Shown here: piece by piece, positions 7,363 to 58,089 of the stretch | How the letters are laid out: each line of letters opens with the position of its first letter | How positions within the stretch are numbered: position 1 is the stretch's first letter | NCBI GenBank assembly: GCA_018401705.1 | Contig: JAGYKL010000018.1 | Location: 1-64,000, forward strand | From: Bacteroidia bacterium | GTDB lineage: Bacteria; Bacteroidota; Bacteroidia; M30B66 | DNA: 64,000 bases | Reading direction: 5' to 3' | Position numbers and translations under genes: made by a program | The notes under the pieces: model-generated | Told to the model about the DNA's origin: nothing | Seen by the model: the letters and a program-made list of their open reading frames with translations, nothing else | The model's database searches: none

Positions 7363-8321
7363 TACTCATGGATGACAAATTACTTGCCAGTGTTGTTGCG
7401 GGGCAGGAAGTCCATCGTAATTGGGGAGGAGTTGTTCCTGAACTGGCCTCGCGAGCACACCAACAAAACATTGTTCCAGTTGTAGAGGAAGCGTTTCGCC
7501 GCTCAAAAATACATAAACGAGACCTTCATGCCATTGCATATACACGAGGTCCTGGATTATTAGGTAGTTTATTAGTTGGAAGCTCCTTTGCTAAAGGCTT
7601 AGCCACGACATTAAATATTCCACTTATTGAAGTAAATCACATGCAGGGACATGTTTTGGCTCATTTTATTGACCAAGGTCAGAGTATGCCATCGCTACCT
7701 TTTTTATGCTTAACCGTTTCTGGAGGACATACTCAAATTGTAAAAGTAACTTCTCATCTTGAAATGGAAATTATTGGAGAAACACAAGATGATGCAGCCG
7801 GTGAAGCTTTCGATAAAGCAGCCAGACTGCTTGGAATAGAATATCCCGGCGGAGCCGAGATGGATAGACTTGCGCGATTGGGCGATAAAAATAGATTTAA
7901 GCTTCCTGAACCCAAAGCTCCCGGATTAAACATGAGTTTTAGCGGACTCAAGACTTCATTTCAATATTTACTGCGCGATGAACTGAAAAAAGATGCAGAG
8001 TTCATAGAAAAAAATAAAAACGACCTCTGTGCGTCTATGCAAGGCACTATCGTAGATATCCTTGTAAAAAAGATTATCCAGGCATCTGAATCAACTGGGA
8101 TTAAGGAAATAGCATTAGCTGGCGGTGTTTCTGCAAACAGCAGCTTAAGGGAAGCTTTCATTGATTTAGAAACAAAAGGATATAAAACTTATGTACCAGC
8201 TTTTGAATTTTGTACAGATAATGCTGCAATGATTGCAATCACAGGCTTTTACAAATACAATGAGGGACTATTTTCAAAGAATAATGAATCTTCGCTGGCT
8301 CGATATCCTTTAGGTTCCTAA
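7299..8321 (+). CDS. tsaD: tRNA N6-adenosine threonylcarbamoyltransferase
   Basis: Universal enzyme (340 residues, the usual length) that transfers the threonylcarbamoyl group to A37 of ANN-decoding tRNAs, acting with TsaB, TsaE and TsaC. It is an ASKHA-fold protein. The sequence shows 'GIESSCDDTAAAI' at the N-terminus, the metal-binding histidines in 'NHMQGHVLAH', 'SGGHTQI', the nucleotide-binding 'GEAFDKAARLLG' and 'GGVSANSSLR', and the late 'CTDNAAMIA' metal site. The ATG at 7299 gives the standard N-terminus. Its 5' end overlaps the opposite-strand tamB frame, and its last 4 bp overlap the convergent TPR lipoprotein gene. Confidence 0.97.
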   Translation: MLNKPVYILGIESSCDDTAAAILMDDKLLASVVAGQEVHRNWGGVVPELASRAHQQNIVPVVEEAFRRSKIHKRDLHAIAYTRGPGLLGSLLVGSSFAKGLATTLNIPLIEVNHMQGHVLAHFIDQGQSMPSLPFLCLTVSGGHTQIVKVTSHLEMEIIGETQDDAAGEAFDKAARLLGIEYPGGAEMDRLARLGDKNRFKLPEPKAPGLNMSFSGLKTSFQYLLRDELKKDAEFIEKNKNDLCASMQGTIVDILVKKIIQASESTGIKEIALAGGVSANSSLREAFIDLETKGYKTYVPAFEFCTDNAAMIAITGFYKYNEGLFSKNNESSLARYPLGS

Positions 8322-9934: not shown

Positions 9935-10618
9935 TTAATTTAAACTACTTTTCTTAGGATCCTCTCCCATAAAAACATATTGCAGCATATTTGCTCCCAT
10001 CTTTAAAGCTCTTTGCCTTGCCGCATCGGAGTCTTTATGAACCGAAGGATCTTCCCAACCGTCGCCTAAATCACATTCGAATGTATACATAACAACCAAT
10101 CGACCTTCGTGAATAATTCCGAAGGCTTGAGGCGGATTATTATCATGCTCGTGAATTTTAGGCAAGCCGTTCGGAAAATCGTATTTAGTATGAAAAATCG
10201 GGTGAGAAGGAGGCAATTCAACCAATTCATGTTCAGGAAAAATCCTCTTTAGCTGAGGACGAATGAATGGGTCCATCCCGTAATTATCATCAATATGAAG
10301 AAAGCCGCCAGCTAAAAGATAATTTCGCAGATTTTCAGATTCAGATGGTGAGAAAATAACATTTCCATGACCAGTCATGTGCACAAACGGAAGATTAAAA
10401 ATCTCAGGATCGCTGGCATCAACTGTAACTGGCTCAGCTGCAATATGAGTTCCCAGGTACTTATTAGAATAGCTAATTAAATTAGGTAATGAAGTTGGAT
10501 TAGCATACCAATCGCCGCCACCACTGTATTTAAGCAGACCTATGCTAAACGTTTGTGCCTGAAGGTTACTCAAAGCTCCCAACAGAAGTAAAGTCGCAAT
10601 ATTTAGGATTATTCTCAT
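9935..10618 (-). CDS. DUF4159 domain exported protein
   Basis: Protein of 227 residues with an N-terminal signal peptide (hydrophobic residues about 3-18, probable cleavage after 'LQAQ'). The rest is a DUF4159 domain with a class I glutamine amidotransferase-like fold. It is recognised by 'GLLKYSGGGDWYANP', 'LPFVHMTGHG', 'LLAGGFLHIDDNYG' and the Asp/Trp-rich C-terminal part 'CDLGDGWEDP'. It should act in the periplasm. No reaction is established that I know of. It is embedded in the rsmE-ruvX-def run with short gaps (21 and 8 bp), an association I believe is frequent in Bacteroidota, but the functional link is unclear. Confidence 0.85.
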   Translation of the reverse strand: MRIILNIATLLLLGALSNLQAQTFSIGLLKYSGGGDWYANPTSLPNLISYSNKYLGTHIAAEPVTVDASDPEIFNLPFVHMTGHGNVIFSPSESENLRNYLLAGGFLHIDDNYGMDPFIRPQLKRIFPEHELVELPPSHPIFHTKYDFPNGLPKIHEHDNNPPQAFGIIHEGRLVVMYTFECDLGDGWEDPSVHKDSDAARQRALKMGANMLQYVFMGEDPKKSSLN

Positions 10619-26092: not shown

Positions 26093-26578
26093 TCAGGAAT
26101 TAGACTTAAGAAGGATACGCAAATCATCTTGAAAAGACATGCCATTGAGACCTAATGGAAGCAAAAAATCGCCATCGGTTCTATCTACCATTTTCAAAGC
26201 TTTAAGAAGGATATCCTTTCCTTCATCACTAAGCATCATATTTTTTGATCGTGTATCTATCTTATTCTTTTTACGACTCAGTAATCCTTTCTTCTGCATG
26301 TTTCGAAGAATCTTAGAAGTCATCATCTTATCTATTCTGCAATGTGCAGCCAGATCTTGCTGAGTAACAATGTTCTTTTGAGTGCTTAGGTAATCTAGTG
26401 CTGCCAGCAACAAAAACTGAGCATGAGTAATATCTAATGTATCTAGTTGAGCTTTCAACTTTCTTTGCCACAGCATAGAAACTTGCCACATAACAAATCC
26501 ACCATTGTTTTCAGGGTCTGAAAACGGATGTCGAGCGTTGGAAACTTTCACTGAAGCTTCAGCTGATTTTTTAGACAT
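26093..26578 (-). CDS. MarR-family transcriptional regulator
   Basis: Winged-helix regulator of 161 residues with the MarR plan: 'QVSMLWQRKLKAQLDTLDITHAQFLLLAALDYL', recognition helix region 'VTQQDLAAHCRIDKMMTSKILRNMQKKGLLSRKK', and the wing with 'DTRSKNMMLSDEGKDIL'. The target is unknown. A perfect short palindrome ACAAATTTGT lies about 33 bp upstream of its start and might be an autoregulatory operator, though it is short. No transporter or enzyme is adjacent in an obvious operon. Confidence 0.88.
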   Translation of the reverse strand: MSKKSAEASVKVSNARHPFSDPENNGGFVMWQVSMLWQRKLKAQLDTLDITHAQFLLLAALDYLSTQKNIVTQQDLAAHCRIDKMMTSKILRNMQKKGLLSRKKNKIDTRSKNMMLSDEGKDILLKALKMVDRTDGDFLLPLGLNGMSFQDDLRILLKSNS

Positions 26579-26645
26579 TCTATGTTTAATTTAGTTGCTG
26601 TTATGAATAATACAAATTTGTTTAGTGTGTGGTGGAATAGAAACG

Positions 26646-26680
26646 AAAGTAATAAATACTACTCAATACCAAATACTTTT
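26646..26680. repeat. Short heptamer-periodic repeat between marR and prmC
   Basis: Five consecutive 7-base units can be read: AAAGTAA, TAAATAC, TACTCAA, TACCAAA, TACTTTT. The unit TACTCAA is the same as in the larger arrays at 55.4 and 57.2 kb. On its own this stretch would be unremarkable in AT-rich DNA; the shared unit and register make it likely to be a small member of the same family. Confidence 0.45.
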
Positions 26681-26683
26681 TTT

Positions 26684-27553
26684 TCATTTTCCTGTTTTTC
26701 CAACTACAAACCTAGGATGGCCGCTTAAATCCTCATGAATAACACAGTCCCTAATTCCCATTGACTGCCAAAGACTTGAAACATCTTGTGCAAAGTTTTT
26801 ATGGCATTCTGCCATAATGATTCCATCTGCTTTAAGTATTGAACTGCCCCATTTTGCTAAACGTTTGTAGAAAATCAATGCGTCATCATCATCAACAAAT
26901 AATGCTATGGATGGCTCACTTTTACTCACATGCAATGCCAATTCAACCTTCTCTCTATATGGTATATATGGTGGATTAGAAACAAGGAAGTCGTATTTAT
27001 TACTATATTCAGCTGGCGGATTTTGCATAATATCATACTGATGATAACTCACATCAAGATTCAATCGCTTTGCATTGCTTCTAGCCACATCTATTGCATC
27101 CTGTGAAACGTCAAAGCCATCCACTTGCGCAATAGGTAAATAGTGTTTAAGGGCCAAAGAAATACATCCACTTCCTGAACAAGCATCCATTATCTTAATA
27201 TCCTTTTGCGGATTCAAGGAAAGCACGTGATTCACCAATTCTTCTGTTTCAGGACGAGGGATAAGCACTGCAGGATTAACTTCAATTTCCAAATCCATAA
27301 ACCACGTTTTTCCTCTGATATACTGAACAGGTTCATGATTTTTGAGTCGTTTTACCCACTTAGAATACCTTATCAAATCACTTTCATTTACCCTTTCATC
27401 AGGATGCAGGTGAATATGTATCATTGAATAACCATTAATATCTTCCGCTGCAAGGCGAAATAATGCCAATCGCTCAGATGCATCATACTCATCCTTAAGC
27501 TCTTGTTCAAAATATCGCTTTATTTCATCGATTCTATTTCCTGGTATTCTCAT
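26684..27553 (-). CDS. prmC: Release factor glutamine methyltransferase
   Basis: SAM-dependent enzyme (289 residues from the ATG at 27553, 'MRIPGNRIDEIKRYF') that methylates the GGQ glutamine of peptide-chain release factors RF1 and RF2. The N-terminal helical domain recognises the factor ('VQYIRGKTWFMDLEIEVNPAVLIPRPETEELV' region). The SAM fold has 'IMDACSGSGCISLALK', and the catalytic 'VSNPPYIP' motif is intact. The start is divergent from ribD with a gap of only 79 bp. Confidence 0.95.
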   Translation of the reverse strand: MRIPGNRIDEIKRYFEQELKDEYDASERLALFRLAAEDINGYSMIHIHLHPDERVNESDLIRYSKWVKRLKNHEPVQYIRGKTWFMDLEIEVNPAVLIPRPETEELVNHVLSLNPQKDIKIMDACSGSGCISLALKHYLPIAQVDGFDVSQDAIDVARSNAKRLNLDVSYHQYDIMQNPPAEYSNKYDFLVSNPPYIPYREKVELALHVSKSEPSIALFVDDDDALIFYKRLAKWGSSILKADGIIMAECHKNFAQDVSSLWQSMGIRDCVIHEDLSGHPRFVVGKTGK

Positions 27554-49289: not shown

Positions 49290-49318
49290 GTGTATGATTT
49301 TAGGTAGAACTAATATAG

Positions 49319-49358
49319 TAAAAACTTAATCATCAAATAATAAAAACTTAATCATCAA
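49319..49358. repeat. Direct repeat upstream of the small membrane protein gene
   Basis: The 18-base sequence TAAAAACTTAATCATCAA occurs exactly at 49319-49336 and again at 49341-49358, a 22-bp period (two helical turns). It lies 30-69 bp upstream of the start at 49289, the usual place for a regulator site. The two-turn spacing fits two proteins bound on one face of the DNA. No regulator can be named. Confidence 0.6.
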
Positions 49359-50826: not shown

Positions 50827-51498
50827 ATGGGGATTCAAATGAAGCATTGGGATCATATAACAAATGGAGTAAATAATATTACCTCACTTGCTTTTGATTA
50901 TAGAAACTTAAATCGTCCCCTACTCCAACGAATTTTTAATAACGAAACACTCTACAATTTATATCTTCAGGAAATATGCTCTTTGATTGAGCATTTTTTC
51001 AACTCTGCCTATTTGGATGCTCGTATTGATGAATTGTACAACCTTATAAAGAATTCGGTATATGCCGATAATAACAAAATGTATACAAATGTCCAATTCG
51101 ATGCAAATATTGAATCAAATATAACTTCTGGAGGAGGCCCCGGAGGAGGAACAATTTATGGACTTAAATCATTTGTAATTTCACGCTTACAATATGTGAA
51201 CGCGAATCTAGATTGTGGAGTTTTCAGTTCTATTGACAAGAGTGAGTTGAATACAATGAATATTTTCCCAAATCCGGCAAACGAAACTATCAATATTGAA
51301 CTGAGCAAAAGCAATGTAAACAAATCTTGCAAAATTGAAGTGTTGAGCACTGACGGAAGGGTGCTTTCAGATGAAAATATCAAAGTAAAATCGGATACTC
51401 CCATTACCATAAATGTCAATCAACTTTCTAATGGATTCTACTTTATAAGGTGCAGCTCTTCGAGCGGAATATCGACGATGAAGTTCATAAAGAATTAG
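50827..51498 (+). pseudogene. CotH-family secreted protein, C-terminal part with T9SS domain
   Basis: Continuation of the CotH gene in the original frame after the disrupted segment (about 50785-50880). From 'NITSLAFDYRNLNRPLLQRIF' onward it is good CotH C-terminal sequence ('LYNLYLQEICSLIEHFFN', 'IYGLKSFVISRLQYVNANL'), followed by a T9SS type A domain ('NIFPNPANETINIELS ... GFYFIRC ... MKFIKN'). At least three indels within about 90 bases separate it from the N-terminal part, with the net frame restored. The ATG at 50827 is only the codon after the stop and is not a credible start. Confidence 0.7.
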
Positions 51499-51500
51499 GA

Positions 51501-51584
51501 AAAGGGGGATAGTTGAAAGTACAAACTGTCAAGTAAATTTAGGCAAAGTCATATCAACTATTCTCTATTGACTATTAACTTTTT
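51501..51584. repeat. Heptamer-like intergenic element between convergent CotH and Kelch genes
   Basis: The DNA reads in 7-base units GATAGTT, GAAAGTA, CAAACTG, TCAAGTA (51508-51535) and, as if inverted, ACTATTC, TCTATTG, ACTATTA, ACTTTTT (51557-51584). ATAGTTGA (51509-51516) and TCAACTAT (51554-51561) form an inverted repeat, so a long hairpin is possible and may act as a bidirectional terminator. TAGTTGAAAGTA is shared exactly with the array at 57.2 kb. The last codons of the Kelch gene lie inside it. Confidence 0.5.
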
Positions 51585-52127
51585 AGTCATTACTCCTACT
51601 TTTGATTTTACCTTAATTAAATAAATTCCATTAGCGTATTCTTGAATGTTAATACTGCTGCTATTGGATAAATTTTTCCTATTAAAATATAAATTTCCAT
51701 AAACATCAGATATTTCTATTTCTTCAATCATACTCCCTTCTATTATAAAATAATTAGATGCAGGATTTGGAAATACACTAAAATTATCACCTGCTGGTAT
51801 AGAAGTTTTGGTAACTATTTCAGGATTATATTCCCAGAAATCATTAAAGTAGGGAGAATTGCTTGTACCTAATCCCGCATAACCGTTGTAGCCTATAGTC
51901 ATTGCTACAGCTTGTCTTCTTCTGCCAGGTCCAAAGTTTGCCATTTGAATCCATAAATCTGTAGATGGATTATACATCCAGAAATCTTCAAGATTTAATG
52001 GAACATCAGTTCCTGCTCCAATGAAACCAAAATTATTAATTGAAAAACCAAAGGCATCGGTCCGCTTTGATGGTAAATCAGCTTTTTGAGTCCAAATATT
52101 TGATGTGGTATCATATTCCCAAAATCT
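51558..52127 (-). pseudogene. Kelch-repeat secreted protein, C-terminal part with T9SS domain
   Basis: Same frame as the N-terminal part, beyond an in-frame TAA at 52128-52130. It holds two and a half more Kelch motifs ('FWEYDTTSNIWTQKADLPS', 'FGFIGAGTDVPLNLEDFWMYNPSTDLW', 'GYNGYAGLGTSNSPYFNDFWEYNP') and a T9SS type A domain ('SVFPNPASNYFIIEG ... GIYLIKV ... KKLIV'). Around the stop the expected 'YKDFWEYD' is recovered only if one base is removed before TATAAAGAT and one T is added in the following T run. The last three codons before the stop fall in heptamer-like DNA. Confidence 0.7.
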
Positions 52128-54864: not shown

Positions 54865-55338
54865 TTAATAATAAGATTCCTTTTTCATTGAGATATCTGA
54901 AGGTAATATCGTACCCCAAGTTTTTAAAAGATATCTCTCTTTTTCTCCATCTACACTTCCATTAATTTGAATGGGGCAATTGCAAGGTCCAATTTTGCGC
55001 AACCATGCTGACCAAAAAATCATTGATTCGCCCGGGGCAACTTTATCATATCTCTCCTTTCTCATCCATAAAACGCTACAGTCTCTTTCTCTGTAAGGAT
55101 GTATCAAGGTATCTCCTGTATTGTTAATTATTTCTATTTCAATTCTAGGTAAACTATCTACGTTCAACGTCCCAAGAAATAATCCCTGAGAAGGACCTTT
55201 CAAATTGAAAATGTATCGCTTTATCTCAGGTGAATATTCTTGAACAGATTGCAACTTGTAGAAGTCCTTTCCTTTAATCTGCGCCTGAGAATGCGCTGCG
55301 AATAAAAATGAGAAGAGTAAGGCATAATGTAATTTCAT
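54865..55338 (-). CDS. Small exported protein of unknown function
   Basis: Protein of 157 residues with a signal peptide (about 1-19, 'FLFAAHSQAQ'). The mature part contains a probable immunoglobulin-like beta fold ('LPRIEIEIINNTGDTLIHPYRERDCSVLW', then 'DKVAPGESMIFWSAWLRKIGPCNCPIQINGS'). This layout is reminiscent of small periplasmic domains that stabilise or modify other proteins. Three cysteines are present, two as CNC. No family is recognised. It faces the T9SS cargo gene (convergent) and is followed upstream by heptamer-repeat DNA. Confidence 0.6.
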   Translation of the reverse strand: MKLHYALLFSFLFAAHSQAQIKGKDFYKLQSVQEYSPEIKRYIFNLKGPSQGLFLGTLNVDSLPRIEIEIINNTGDTLIHPYRERDCSVLWMRKERYDKVAPGESMIFWSAWLRKIGPCNCPIQINGSVDGEKERYLLKTWGTILPSDISMKKESYY

Positions 55339-55379: not shown

Positions 55380-55622
55380 TTAGGAAAAAGGTTATAGGAG
55401 AAAGTACAATGTGCAAAGTTAAAAGCTAAAAGTTGAGCGTACAAAATATATCTTACAGCATATATCGTACATCGAAATGTTGGAAGTGGATTGTAAAGAG
55501 TGAGACGTTCATCGTAAATCGTAAATCTTACATCGTATTACGATAAATGTACTAAGTAAAAAATAAAACTACATACTCAATACTGCGCGCTTAATAAGCA
55601 ATACCTTCATTTTGCAAGGCAA
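55380..55622. repeat. Degenerate heptamer-periodic intergenic array 1
   Basis: The whole gap between two minus-strand genes reads as consecutive 7-base units in two registers. Register 1 (55380-55477, 14 units) includes AAAGTAC, AATGTGC, AAAGTTA, AAAGCTA, AAAGTTG, AGCGTAC, ATCTTAC, ATCGTAC, ATCGAAA; 11 of 14 units have G at position 4. Register 2 (55476-55622, 21 units) includes ATTGTAA, AGAGTGA, two exact ATCGTAA, ATCTTAC, ATCGTAT, then TACTCAA, TACTGCG, and TACCTTC; 11 of the first 12 have G at position 4. Adjacent units are related but rarely identical. No ORF, and not an insertion sequence. Function unknown. Confidence 0.65.
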
Positions 55623-55639
55623 ACTTTAATACGCATTAT

Positions 55640-57037
55640 TTAATCTACAAGCAAAATCTTACCTGATGAAACAATATTATTTTCTCTTGTGATTTTATAC
55701 AAATAAAAACCCCTAGCATTGTTTGATAAATCAACAATTGCGTTTGAAGAAATTAATTTTTCATTATGAATAAGAGTTCCAACACAATTATATATTTCCA
55801 GATTATCAAATTGATTAAGTGATGCATTAATTTGAATATTAAATTCGCCATTTGAAGGGTTGGGATAAATAAATGCTTCAAAATCATTAGTATTTTTAGC
55901 TAGGCCTACAGTTGAAGTACAGCCATCTAGCACCTGAACTGGGATGTTTTCATCAATAAAATCACCGTTGCCGAGAGCACCTGATATGTTGTTACCGCAA
56001 GCCCAAAGTGTATCATCGCTTTTTAGAAATAAAGAATGACTTAAGCCTGATGCAGAGATTTTTATTATATCTGTGAGTCCACTCACTTGAACAGGGATGT
56101 TTTGGCTCAAATTTGACCCGTCACCCAATTGTCCAACCAAGTTATCTCCACAAGACCAAACTGTTCCATCATTCTTCAAAAATAGTGAATGATATTGACC
56201 AGCAGAAACTGCAACAATATCTGAAAGACTATTGATTTGGACAGGGGTCGTTTTAGAATCGTTAGTGCCATCACCTAGTTGTCCTTGATTGTTAATTCCA
56301 CTTGCCCAAACAGTATTATCACCTTTGATAAATAGAGAATGCCTAAATCCTCCAGCTATAGATATAACGCTGCCAATTGAATTAACTTGAGTAGGATTAA
56401 TTACTTGTAATGGCGAAGAACCTAAACCTAAACATCCGTCTTGATTATCACCACAAGAAAACACTGTACTATCGCTTTTCAAGAACATAGAATGGTAATC
56501 GCCAGCTGCAATGTCAATTATACCCGACAGGCTAGTAACTTGAACAGGAGAAAGTCTTTGTGTTTGTGTTCCATCGCCAAGTTCGCCTGAAAAATTCCTA
56601 CCGCAAGACCAAACAGTGCTATCACTTTTAAGAAAAAGTGAATGATAGAAACCAGCTGCTATTTTAGTAATTCCTGTGAGACTTGGTATTTGGATAGGAG
56701 TTGATGAGCTGGTATTTGTGCCATTTCCAAATTGACCATACTCATTATAGCCAGTAGCCCAAACCGTGCTATCGCTTAATAAAAACAAAGTGAATTGATC
56801 TCTTGAAGAAGTAGCAACAATTCCAGTTAAGTCATTTACAGATATGGGTGTTGAAGTATTAGATGTTGTTCCATTCCCTAACTGTCCGAAAGTATTAGTA
56901 CCCGTTGCTTTTGCTTCTCCATCTGAACAAACAAATACTGAATGACTGCTTCCTGCCGCCACAGCTTGAGCCAATAATGAAGTAGCTGTGCAATTAAATA
57001 TTGCCATTGTAAATAATAGTCTTTTTATTTTTCGCAT
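55640..57037 (-). CDS. Secreted RCC1-repeat propeller protein with T9SS sorting domain
   Basis: Exported protein of 465 residues. The signal peptide (about 1-25) leads into seven RCC1-type repeats of about 51 residues. Each has 'A-A-G-x-x-H-S-L-F-L-K-S-D-S-T-V-W-S-C-G-x-N-x-x-G-Q-L-G-D-G-T', for example 'YHSLFLKNDGTVWSCGDN'. They predict a complete seven-bladed propeller (about 27-375). A T9SS type A domain follows ('FIYPNPSNGEFNIQIN ... GFYLYKI ... GKILLVD'). RCC1-like bacterial proteins of this kind are extracellular binders with unknown ligands. It lies between the two heptamer arrays. Confidence 0.88.
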   Translation of the reverse strand: MRKIKRLLFTMAIFNCTATSLLAQAVAAGSSHSVFVCSDGEAKATGTNTFGQLGNGTTSNTSTPISVNDLTGIVATSSRDQFTLFLLSDSTVWATGYNEYGQFGNGTNTSSSTPIQIPSLTGITKIAAGFYHSLFLKSDSTVWSCGRNFSGELGDGTQTQRLSPVQVTSLSGIIDIAAGDYHSMFLKSDSTVFSCGDNQDGCLGLGSSPLQVINPTQVNSIGSVISIAGGFRHSLFIKGDNTVWASGINNQGQLGDGTNDSKTTPVQINSLSDIVAVSAGQYHSLFLKNDGTVWSCGDNLVGQLGDGSNLSQNIPVQVSGLTDIIKISASGLSHSLFLKSDDTLWACGNNISGALGNGDFIDENIPVQVLDGCTSTVGLAKNTNDFEAFIYPNPSNGEFNIQINASLNQFDNLEIYNCVGTLIHNEKLISSNAIVDLSNNARGFYLYKITRENNIVSSGKILLVD

Positions 57038-57169
57038 AGCTGTTTTCTTAAAGTTTGGTTCTTTTGTATTGCTATATAAACAGATAAATGGCCTAAATAG
57101 GCAGAGTTTGTTTTATAAATTTCTTCAGTTTTTAATTAGCCAAGATTAAGGTAGATTGATTAGAGGTGA

Positions 57170-57391
57170 AATAACTAATACTAGTGAGTAGTGAGTAGTT
57201 GAAAGTAGATAGTGGATAGGAAAAAGTGAAAAGTTTTTTTGGCATTATCAAAAACGGGAAGTAGAAAATAAAATGTGAAAAGCAGAAACTAGAACGGCAT
57301 ACTCAATACATTTTACCCAATACATAATACCTTCAGCGTAAATCATATATTCGCATGTCGTAAATCGCGCATCATAAATCGAAAATCGTGA
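57170..57391. repeat. Degenerate heptamer-periodic intergenic array 2
   Basis: Block A (57170-57239, 10 units) includes two GTGAGTA, then GTTGAAA, GTAGATA, GTGGATA, GGAAAAA, GTGAAAA, GTTTTTT; eight successive units begin with G and seven of them with GT. After a 10-base break plus one unit, block B (57258-57348) runs in one register: GAAGTAG, AAAATAA, AATGTGA, AAAGCAG, AAACTAG, AACGGCA, TACTCAA, TACATTT, TACCCAA, TACATAA, TACCTTC, AGCGTAA, ATCATAT. One 8-base unit follows, then GTCGTAA, ATCGCGC, ATCATAA, ATCGAAA, ATCGTGA (57357-57391). The array runs into the GTG proposed as start of the next gene. Confidence 0.65.
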
Positions 57392-58089
57392 ACCACCTCC
57401 TACTCCTTCCAACTCTCATCATACTAATGGCTTTCAACGGAAATTCAGATGAATCCCTCCGACGAACGCCGAAATTAAAAATTGGCACCTATTGGATGAT
57501 GAAAACAACACAAGTATCAAATTCTCAAAGTAAGGCCTCTGATTATATTTCCAATGAATATTGTGAAATAGACTCAATATTTAAAATTGATGGCAGAAAG
57601 GTCTATCGTGCTCTGTACACCATTGAAGAACAAAACAAAAAGTTCCATGTCGTGTTTGACGAAATGAACTTTGAAATATTATCCTTACATGCAATTACTG
57701 ATGAAGGCGAAGACACCTTAGAATTTAAATCCCGTTTATTAAGATTCCCTCTTCATGAGGATAGATCTTGGAGATCAAGAGAAACAACTCAAGGAGCAAT
57801 CGACATAGCTGCATTATCAATGGATGCCGAATTTCATGTTGACGGAGTTGGAGATACGACATTCTCAGTAAACGGCCAAACCATTCAAACCAAGGCGTGG
57901 AAGATAAGCTGCACATTAGAATTTCAAGAAGAGAAATTCAATTCAAAATATGTCTATTTAGCACCAACTAAAAAATTTCCCGGATCCTGCCCTATGTTTA
58001 TGTGGGTAGAAATGATGCACGGCCTCGTTGAAGAAGTCAAAACAAACCAAATGTGGATGAAGAAAGAACTGCTGGAGTTTAAGTGGTGA
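57388..58089 (+). CDS. Exported protein of unknown function
   Basis: Protein of up to 233 residues. A GTG at 57388 gives a signal peptide ('NHLLLLPTLIILMAF'). The mature part resembles the DUF3108 type by eye: 'GTYWMMKTTQVSNSQ', 'YCEIDSIFKIDGRKVYRALYTIEEQ', 'LLRFPLHEDRSWRSRE' and 'YVYLAPTKKFPGSCPMFMWVE'. I would not assign a function. The start is doubtful, because the GTG is part of the heptamer unit ATCGTGA. The ATG at 57427 is the next choice but would leave no signal sequence. The array therefore supplies at least part of this gene's leader. Confidence 0.6.
   Translation: MNHLLLLPTLIILMAFNGNSDESLRRTPKLKIGTYWMMKTTQVSNSQSKASDYISNEYCEIDSIFKIDGRKVYRALYTIEEQNKKFHVVFDEMNFEILSLHAITDEGEDTLEFKSRLLRFPLHEDRSWRSRETTQGAIDIAALSMDAEFHVDGVGDTTFSVNGQTIQTKAWKISCTLEFQEEKFNSKYVYLAPTKKFPGSCPMFMWVEMMHGLVEEVKTNQMWMKKELLEFKW

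Follow-up and report, generated by a model that had tools for sequence, protein, structure and literature searches.

A degenerate heptad array in an intergenic gap of a Bacteroidia genome, read as a worn member of a genome-wide set

Among the short repeats found between prokaryotic genes, heptads are the commonest according to previous accounts, which give their cause as unknown (PMC4679880, PMC4692102, PMC6344855), and tandem heptamer repeats were catalogued with SPADE in 7006 genomes (PMC6344855). The heptanucleotide long simple sequence repeats of Mrazek et al. 2007 (as cited in PMC4679880 and PMC4692102) resemble the arrays described here in their 7-bp unit, their intergenic position and their over-representation relative to other periods, and slippage was proposed as their origin. 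Those repeats are perfect or near-perfect, whereas here the units are degenerate and one register accommodates several dialects; the array from which this study started (array 1) almost escapes TRF.

TAACTGA repeats and ‘larger assemblages of heptamer repeats’ were reported from Beggiatoaceae, Cyanobacteria and five Bacteroidetes (PMC4679880). Like the present arrays they are intergenic and occur in Bacteroidetes, and the closest relatives have shorter, repeat-free gaps at the same junctions (PMC4679880). TAACTGA is, however, one fixed word, found in Beggiatoaceae mostly as 2–6 copies directly upstream of start codons (PMC4679880), whereas the present arrays use many words, are long and favour convergent gaps. 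No TAACTGA pair was found in the sequence of array 1, and the TAACTGA class is not among the common array words of the genome. The GGGAATC / GGGGA(T/C)T heptads of Xanthomonas and Nostoc are likewise heterogeneous, with conserved and variable positions, and vary in length and sequence between close relatives, as here (PMC4692102). They form a G-quadruplex motif, and two species mostly carry them at the same gene junctions (PMC4692102), unlike the present AT-rich CGTA, CGAT, AAAG and TACT types, which are mostly without G-tracts. The heptad kind itself is therefore known, and Bacteroidetes assemblages missing from the shorter gaps of relatives had already been noted (PMC4679880); what is new is that the arrays are degenerate and of several dialects, and that their vocabulary is conserved where their loci are not, in that no prior description of either was found in the literature accessible outside most subscription journals.

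The window analysed here is the whole stretch of 64,000 nucleotides at the start of contig JAGYKL010000018.1 (assembly GCA_018401705.1). Array 1 (55380–55622) occupies the gap between two minus-strand genes. It is given below with its neighbours and the other arrays of the window, in order of position.

26579 to 26683, no strand assigned: weak array reaching from a MarR-family gene to the next minus-strand gene (lag-7 identity 0.425 over 26571–26697; under the detector threshold).
51488 to 51614, no strand assigned: weak array in and past the convergent gap 51499–51557 (lag-7 identity 0.458; under the detector threshold).
54865 to 55338, minus strand: left neighbour, an open reading frame for a 157-aa protein with no Pfam family, start codon toward array 1.
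55382 to 55622, no strand assigned: array 1, degenerate heptads (autocorrelation z 7.6; detector segment 55382–55584, weaker tail to 55622).
55640 to 57037, minus strand: right neighbour, a protein with RCC1 repeats and a type IX secretion C-terminal domain (Pfam PF00415 and PF18962), which assigns the genome to the Bacteroidota; stop codon toward array 1.
57168 to 57396, no strand assigned: array 2, heptads of array 1's types on the far side of the RCC1-like gene (lag-7 identity and detector segment 57182–57396).

Identity at lag 7 was 0.500 in 55380–55622, compared with 0.289 ± 0.028 in 5000 dinucleotide-preserving shuffles, none of which was as high (z 7.6). The signal was echoed at lags 14, 21 and 28 (0.485, 0.473 and 0.419; z 6.9, 6.5 and 4.4), and the remaining lags up to 29 gave 0.195–0.327. 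The period of 7 proposed in the initial annotation thus withstood comparison with dinucleotide-shuffled controls. The core at 55382–55584, the detector segment, is the firmest part of the array; the tail at 55585–55622 is weaker, and the 127-bp stretch 55522–55648 gave a lag-7 identity of 0.41 (window baseline: mean 0.265, sd 0.047). Array 2 reached 0.525 and 0.492 in two 127-bp stretches, and its periodic region spans 57168–57420. Similar arrays elsewhere, which the initial annotation had made a test of its reading, were found within the window itself, as well as in the wider genome sample described below.

The units of array 1 are nearly all unlike (19 types among the 20 units of 55401–55545), and the sole TRF call was (ATCGTAA)3.9 at 55511–55537, at 85%. 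Runs of identical units beyond chance were accordingly not found in the array, and no repeated multi-unit blocks are left in it. Because of the 19 types in 20 units and the mere 3.9 copies seen by TRF, array 1 was filed as a degenerate variant of heptanucleotide repeats and not as a simple sequence repeat, which agrees with the earlier view that rightly set it apart from classic tandem repeats and from insertion sequences. Long identical runs were rare in the genome's other arrays as well, even though these contain duplicated blocks. Unit order runs from purine/GTA-type (AAAGTAC, AAAGTTG) through CGTA-type (ATCGTAC, ATCGTAA) to TAC-type units (TACTCAA, TACCTTC). The G noted at position 4 of the unit survives as a tendency, but conservation among the columns was not significantly uneven in any segment of the array (p 0.32–0.996). 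Elsewhere in the window, a 22-bp tandem duplication at 49315–49358 (ATAATAAAAACTTAATCATCAA, two copies, 95% alike) lies directly upstream of a minus-strand gene.

The 1.26 Mb of sampled genome sequence contained 19 period-7 arrays (3.1 kb), all between genes; two of them are crossed by an ORF of about 100 codons, which was taken as spurious. Control periods of 4, 5, 8, 10, 11, 13, 16, 17, 19 and 20 gave 0–2 arrays each in the same 1.26 Mb, and the excess is specific to period 7, as in the known heptanucleotide repeats of intergenic DNA. Extrapolation gives about 55 arrays per 3.74 Mb genome, an estimate that may be high because the sample took in the window and a few contigs picked for hits. 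A pattern of four CGTANNN units matched the genome 54 times, and the reversed pattern did not match it at all. Array 1 is best explained as an old, worn member of this genome-wide set of intergenic heptad arrays. In L142, copies of a unit of about 10 bp (CCCCATGAGC) come after each of two heptad arrays 2.8 kb apart (about 7370–7420 and 10150–10200; G000 C3:47.4 and 50.2 kb), which gives the impression that a duplication took in the entire intergenic region.

Less decayed arrays retain traces of how they grew. Runs of three or four units recurred more often than in arrays with shuffled unit order: recurring three-unit runs numbered 10 in L155 (0.2 after shuffling of unit order), 6 in L152 (0.9), 4 in L039 (0.1) and 17 in L204 of genome G003 (9), and in-register duplicated blocks of 2–4 units were present in many arrays, that is, in most of those tested. 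Distances between exact repeats were almost all multiples of 7, with the exception of L039, where other distances occurred too. Identical adjacent units were not enriched in most arrays, which argues against single-unit slippage as the main step; since identity in the pooled arrays was also slightly higher at lag 14 (0.65) than at lag 7 (0.62), the arrays appear to have grown mostly by duplicating at least two units at a time.

Array 1 is probably an old heptad satellite that grew by duplication in 7-bp steps and then diverged. Intergenic DNA would be enlarged in steps of 7 bp by replication slippage or unequal recombination, in blocks of two or more units as in the less decayed arrays, and would later diverge by substitution with the register mostly kept. 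Such arrays may arise again and again where extra DNA is tolerated, at gene junctions and in convergent gaps, with no function required. Array 1 itself offers neither repeated blocks nor a datable junction, so we infer its growth by this route from its kin, the loss of duplicated blocks being what an old array should show; replication or recombination as the agent is inferred likewise. The initial annotation's suggestion of slippage-grown, diverged DNA is in this way supported through insertions and block duplications at other arrays, and for array 1 by extension from them.

Arrays were dated by the order of genes in relatives, with one genome per species; between species, two arrays proved to be present here and absent in relatives. 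The nuclease–hutI junction measures about 310 bp in this genome, mostly heptads that start at the nuclease stop codon, and is closed (about 0–15 bp) in three relatives, namely one genome of the same genus and two of other genera. A TPR gene and glyS are separated by about 175 bp of heptads here, compared with about 40–75 bp of repeat-free DNA in G001, G003, G005, G006 and G008. The gene names at these junctions were read from the proteins and not from database annotation. Two arrays other than array 1 thus stand inserted where relatives have a short or closed junction, and on this comparison they were added in the lineage of this genome, loss in every relative being the less simple alternative. 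For array 1, a DNA search with its 11-kb surroundings found no orthologous junction; relatives matched almost only the operon at 58.2–60.7 kb, and array 1 is undated because its flanking genes have no DNA-level counterpart in them. The array between dsbD and a DUF456 gene (C12:85.2 kb) likewise has no date, as the two genes were not found adjacent to each other in relatives. Downstream of the nuclease gene, another genus of the family (L098, L099, L100, L102 and L103) has some 100 bp of conserved sequence (GGGTAAGTC...GACCAGCTCCTGTTGAACTCCCCCAGG...) that looks like a small SRP RNA.

The vocabulary was defined as the 61 heptamer classes common in the arrays of this genome, and the arrays of relatives were found by period. 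Heptamers of the arrays of G003, G004 and G006 fell within it in 64%, 49% and 76% of cases, where the G006 figure comes from three short arrays and some stretches of the relatives come from contigs already known to hold arrays. The genome background share was 6–9%, and arrays with permuted columns, which keep composition and period, gave means of 19%, 13% and 11% and maxima of 48%, 32% and 73% in 400 trials. A few dozen words, of the classes AATACGT, AACGTAC, ACATCGT, AAAGTAG and AAAGGGG, recurred at independent places in several genera. In two arrays of G004 C23 (L388 17506–17642 and L389 16328–16489) the dialect shifts from CGTATAA through TAAATAC to TCAAGAC with the register little or not lost, and the sole constant, throughout parts of the arrays, is an AC step.

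Words common to different loci would also be expected if the arrays had spread as copies of a small mobile element, or if pieces of arrays had been copied to new places. The longest stretches common to two arrays of this genome averaged 11.8, however, against 11.4 with unit order shuffled, only 6 of 171 pairs beat all shuffles in shared length where about 4 were expected, and no shared ends were seen. Dispersal of array copies was rejected for want of an excess of shared blocks, and we regard it as extremely improbable. Words are thus common to arrays that bear no sign of copying between them, across several genera, whereas neither of the dated loci is held in common.

Such sharing is not predicted by plain slippage. 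Duplication followed by decay, which we prefer, explains neither the step of 7 nor the renewed arrival at the same words, although an inherited mutational bias could lie behind some of the sharing. It is conceivable, if rather doubtful, that this bacterial family has a sequence-biased process which creates such arrays de novo out of a fixed vocabulary. That independent loci, across several genera, draw on one vocabulary with no copying of blocks would also suit templated growth, in which an enzyme working from an RNA or an internal template adds DNA 7 nt at a time, in the manner of telomerase, and so lays down the same words at independent places. The vocabulary consists of several dialects and not of one template, however, and the block duplications show existing array DNA being copied. 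Moreover, a search for the family RVT_1 (PF00078) at E ≤ 0.001 was negative in this 98.5% complete genome and positive in 3 of 14 control genomes. Growth templated by a reverse transcriptase was rejected on this RVT_1 result, the ‘templated’ part of the initial reading is not sustained, and templated growth as a whole is very unlikely.

In CG-type arrays the C and G columns took 11 of 106 changes where 30 were expected (hand count with each unit type counted once; binomial p 5e-6). The array L117 11909–12044 (G000 C67:31.9–32.0 kb) consists of 19 units, 17 of them distinct, with CGA in 18–19 of 19 and the last three positions near random and almost without C (p < 0.0002). A general rule of four constant plus three variable bases was rejected, not being significant per array when each unit type was counted once; what survives of it is confined to individual arrays, L117 for example, and to the CG step of the CG-type ones. 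Both observations speak against the slippage view, and may reflect either selective retention of an anchor or a duplication process that favours well-pairing units. We favour the latter, as a guess, because anchors differ between and within arrays.

Among gaps of at least 120 bp, convergent gaps were preferred (13 of 31 arrays compared with 88 of 476 gaps, p 0.0015) and divergent, promoter-bearing ones were not favoured (3 of 31 arrays); array halves adjoining start codons were G-poor on the sense strand in 13 of 15 cases (p 0.0004 against ordinary gaps), and 12 of 15 untied arrays had a lower GC skew in their last third than in their first (p 0.018). These position biases were noticed before testing, and their p-values serve as guides only.

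A selected binding platform, as raised in the initial annotation, would require a DNA- or RNA-binding protein that reads an anchor of 2–4 bases every 7 bases while the other positions drift. It would account for the anchored CG and CGA columns and for the conserved vocabulary, which make up what little positive evidence there is. It fits poorly with the absence of the two dated arrays from the same place in relatives, the several anchor types mixed inside one array, the preference for convergent over promoter-bearing gaps, and an array 1 that has no significantly conserved column and no RNA structure. We consider such a platform unlikely, though it keeps some probability.

The skew and the preference for convergent gaps would be compatible with a hairpin or bidirectional terminator in which 5' purine-type and 3' pyrimidine-type units pair as an RNA stem. 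Shuffled sequences folded as well as array 1 did on both strands (z 0.07 and -1.06), however, Rfam had no match in 50–60 kb of the window, and arrays with CG units only lack the two arms. With neither a folding signal in array 1 nor an Rfam match, this explanation was rejected as highly improbable.

Beyond this genome, four successive ACTTTNN units occurred in 42 of 247 well-completed genomes of the phylum. Five successive CGTANNN units were found in Chloroflexota, Cyanobacteria, Bacteroidota, Pseudomonadota and others, many as perfect repeats and a minority degenerate. If a fixed vocabulary were indeed produced de novo, it would imply an enzyme working in 7-nt steps with a sequence preference, or selection on the words. 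The family offers dated insertions into closed junctions, arrays at every stage of decay and words that persist beyond their loci, and it thereby makes testable whether the replication machinery or selection sets the step of 7 and determines which words are used.
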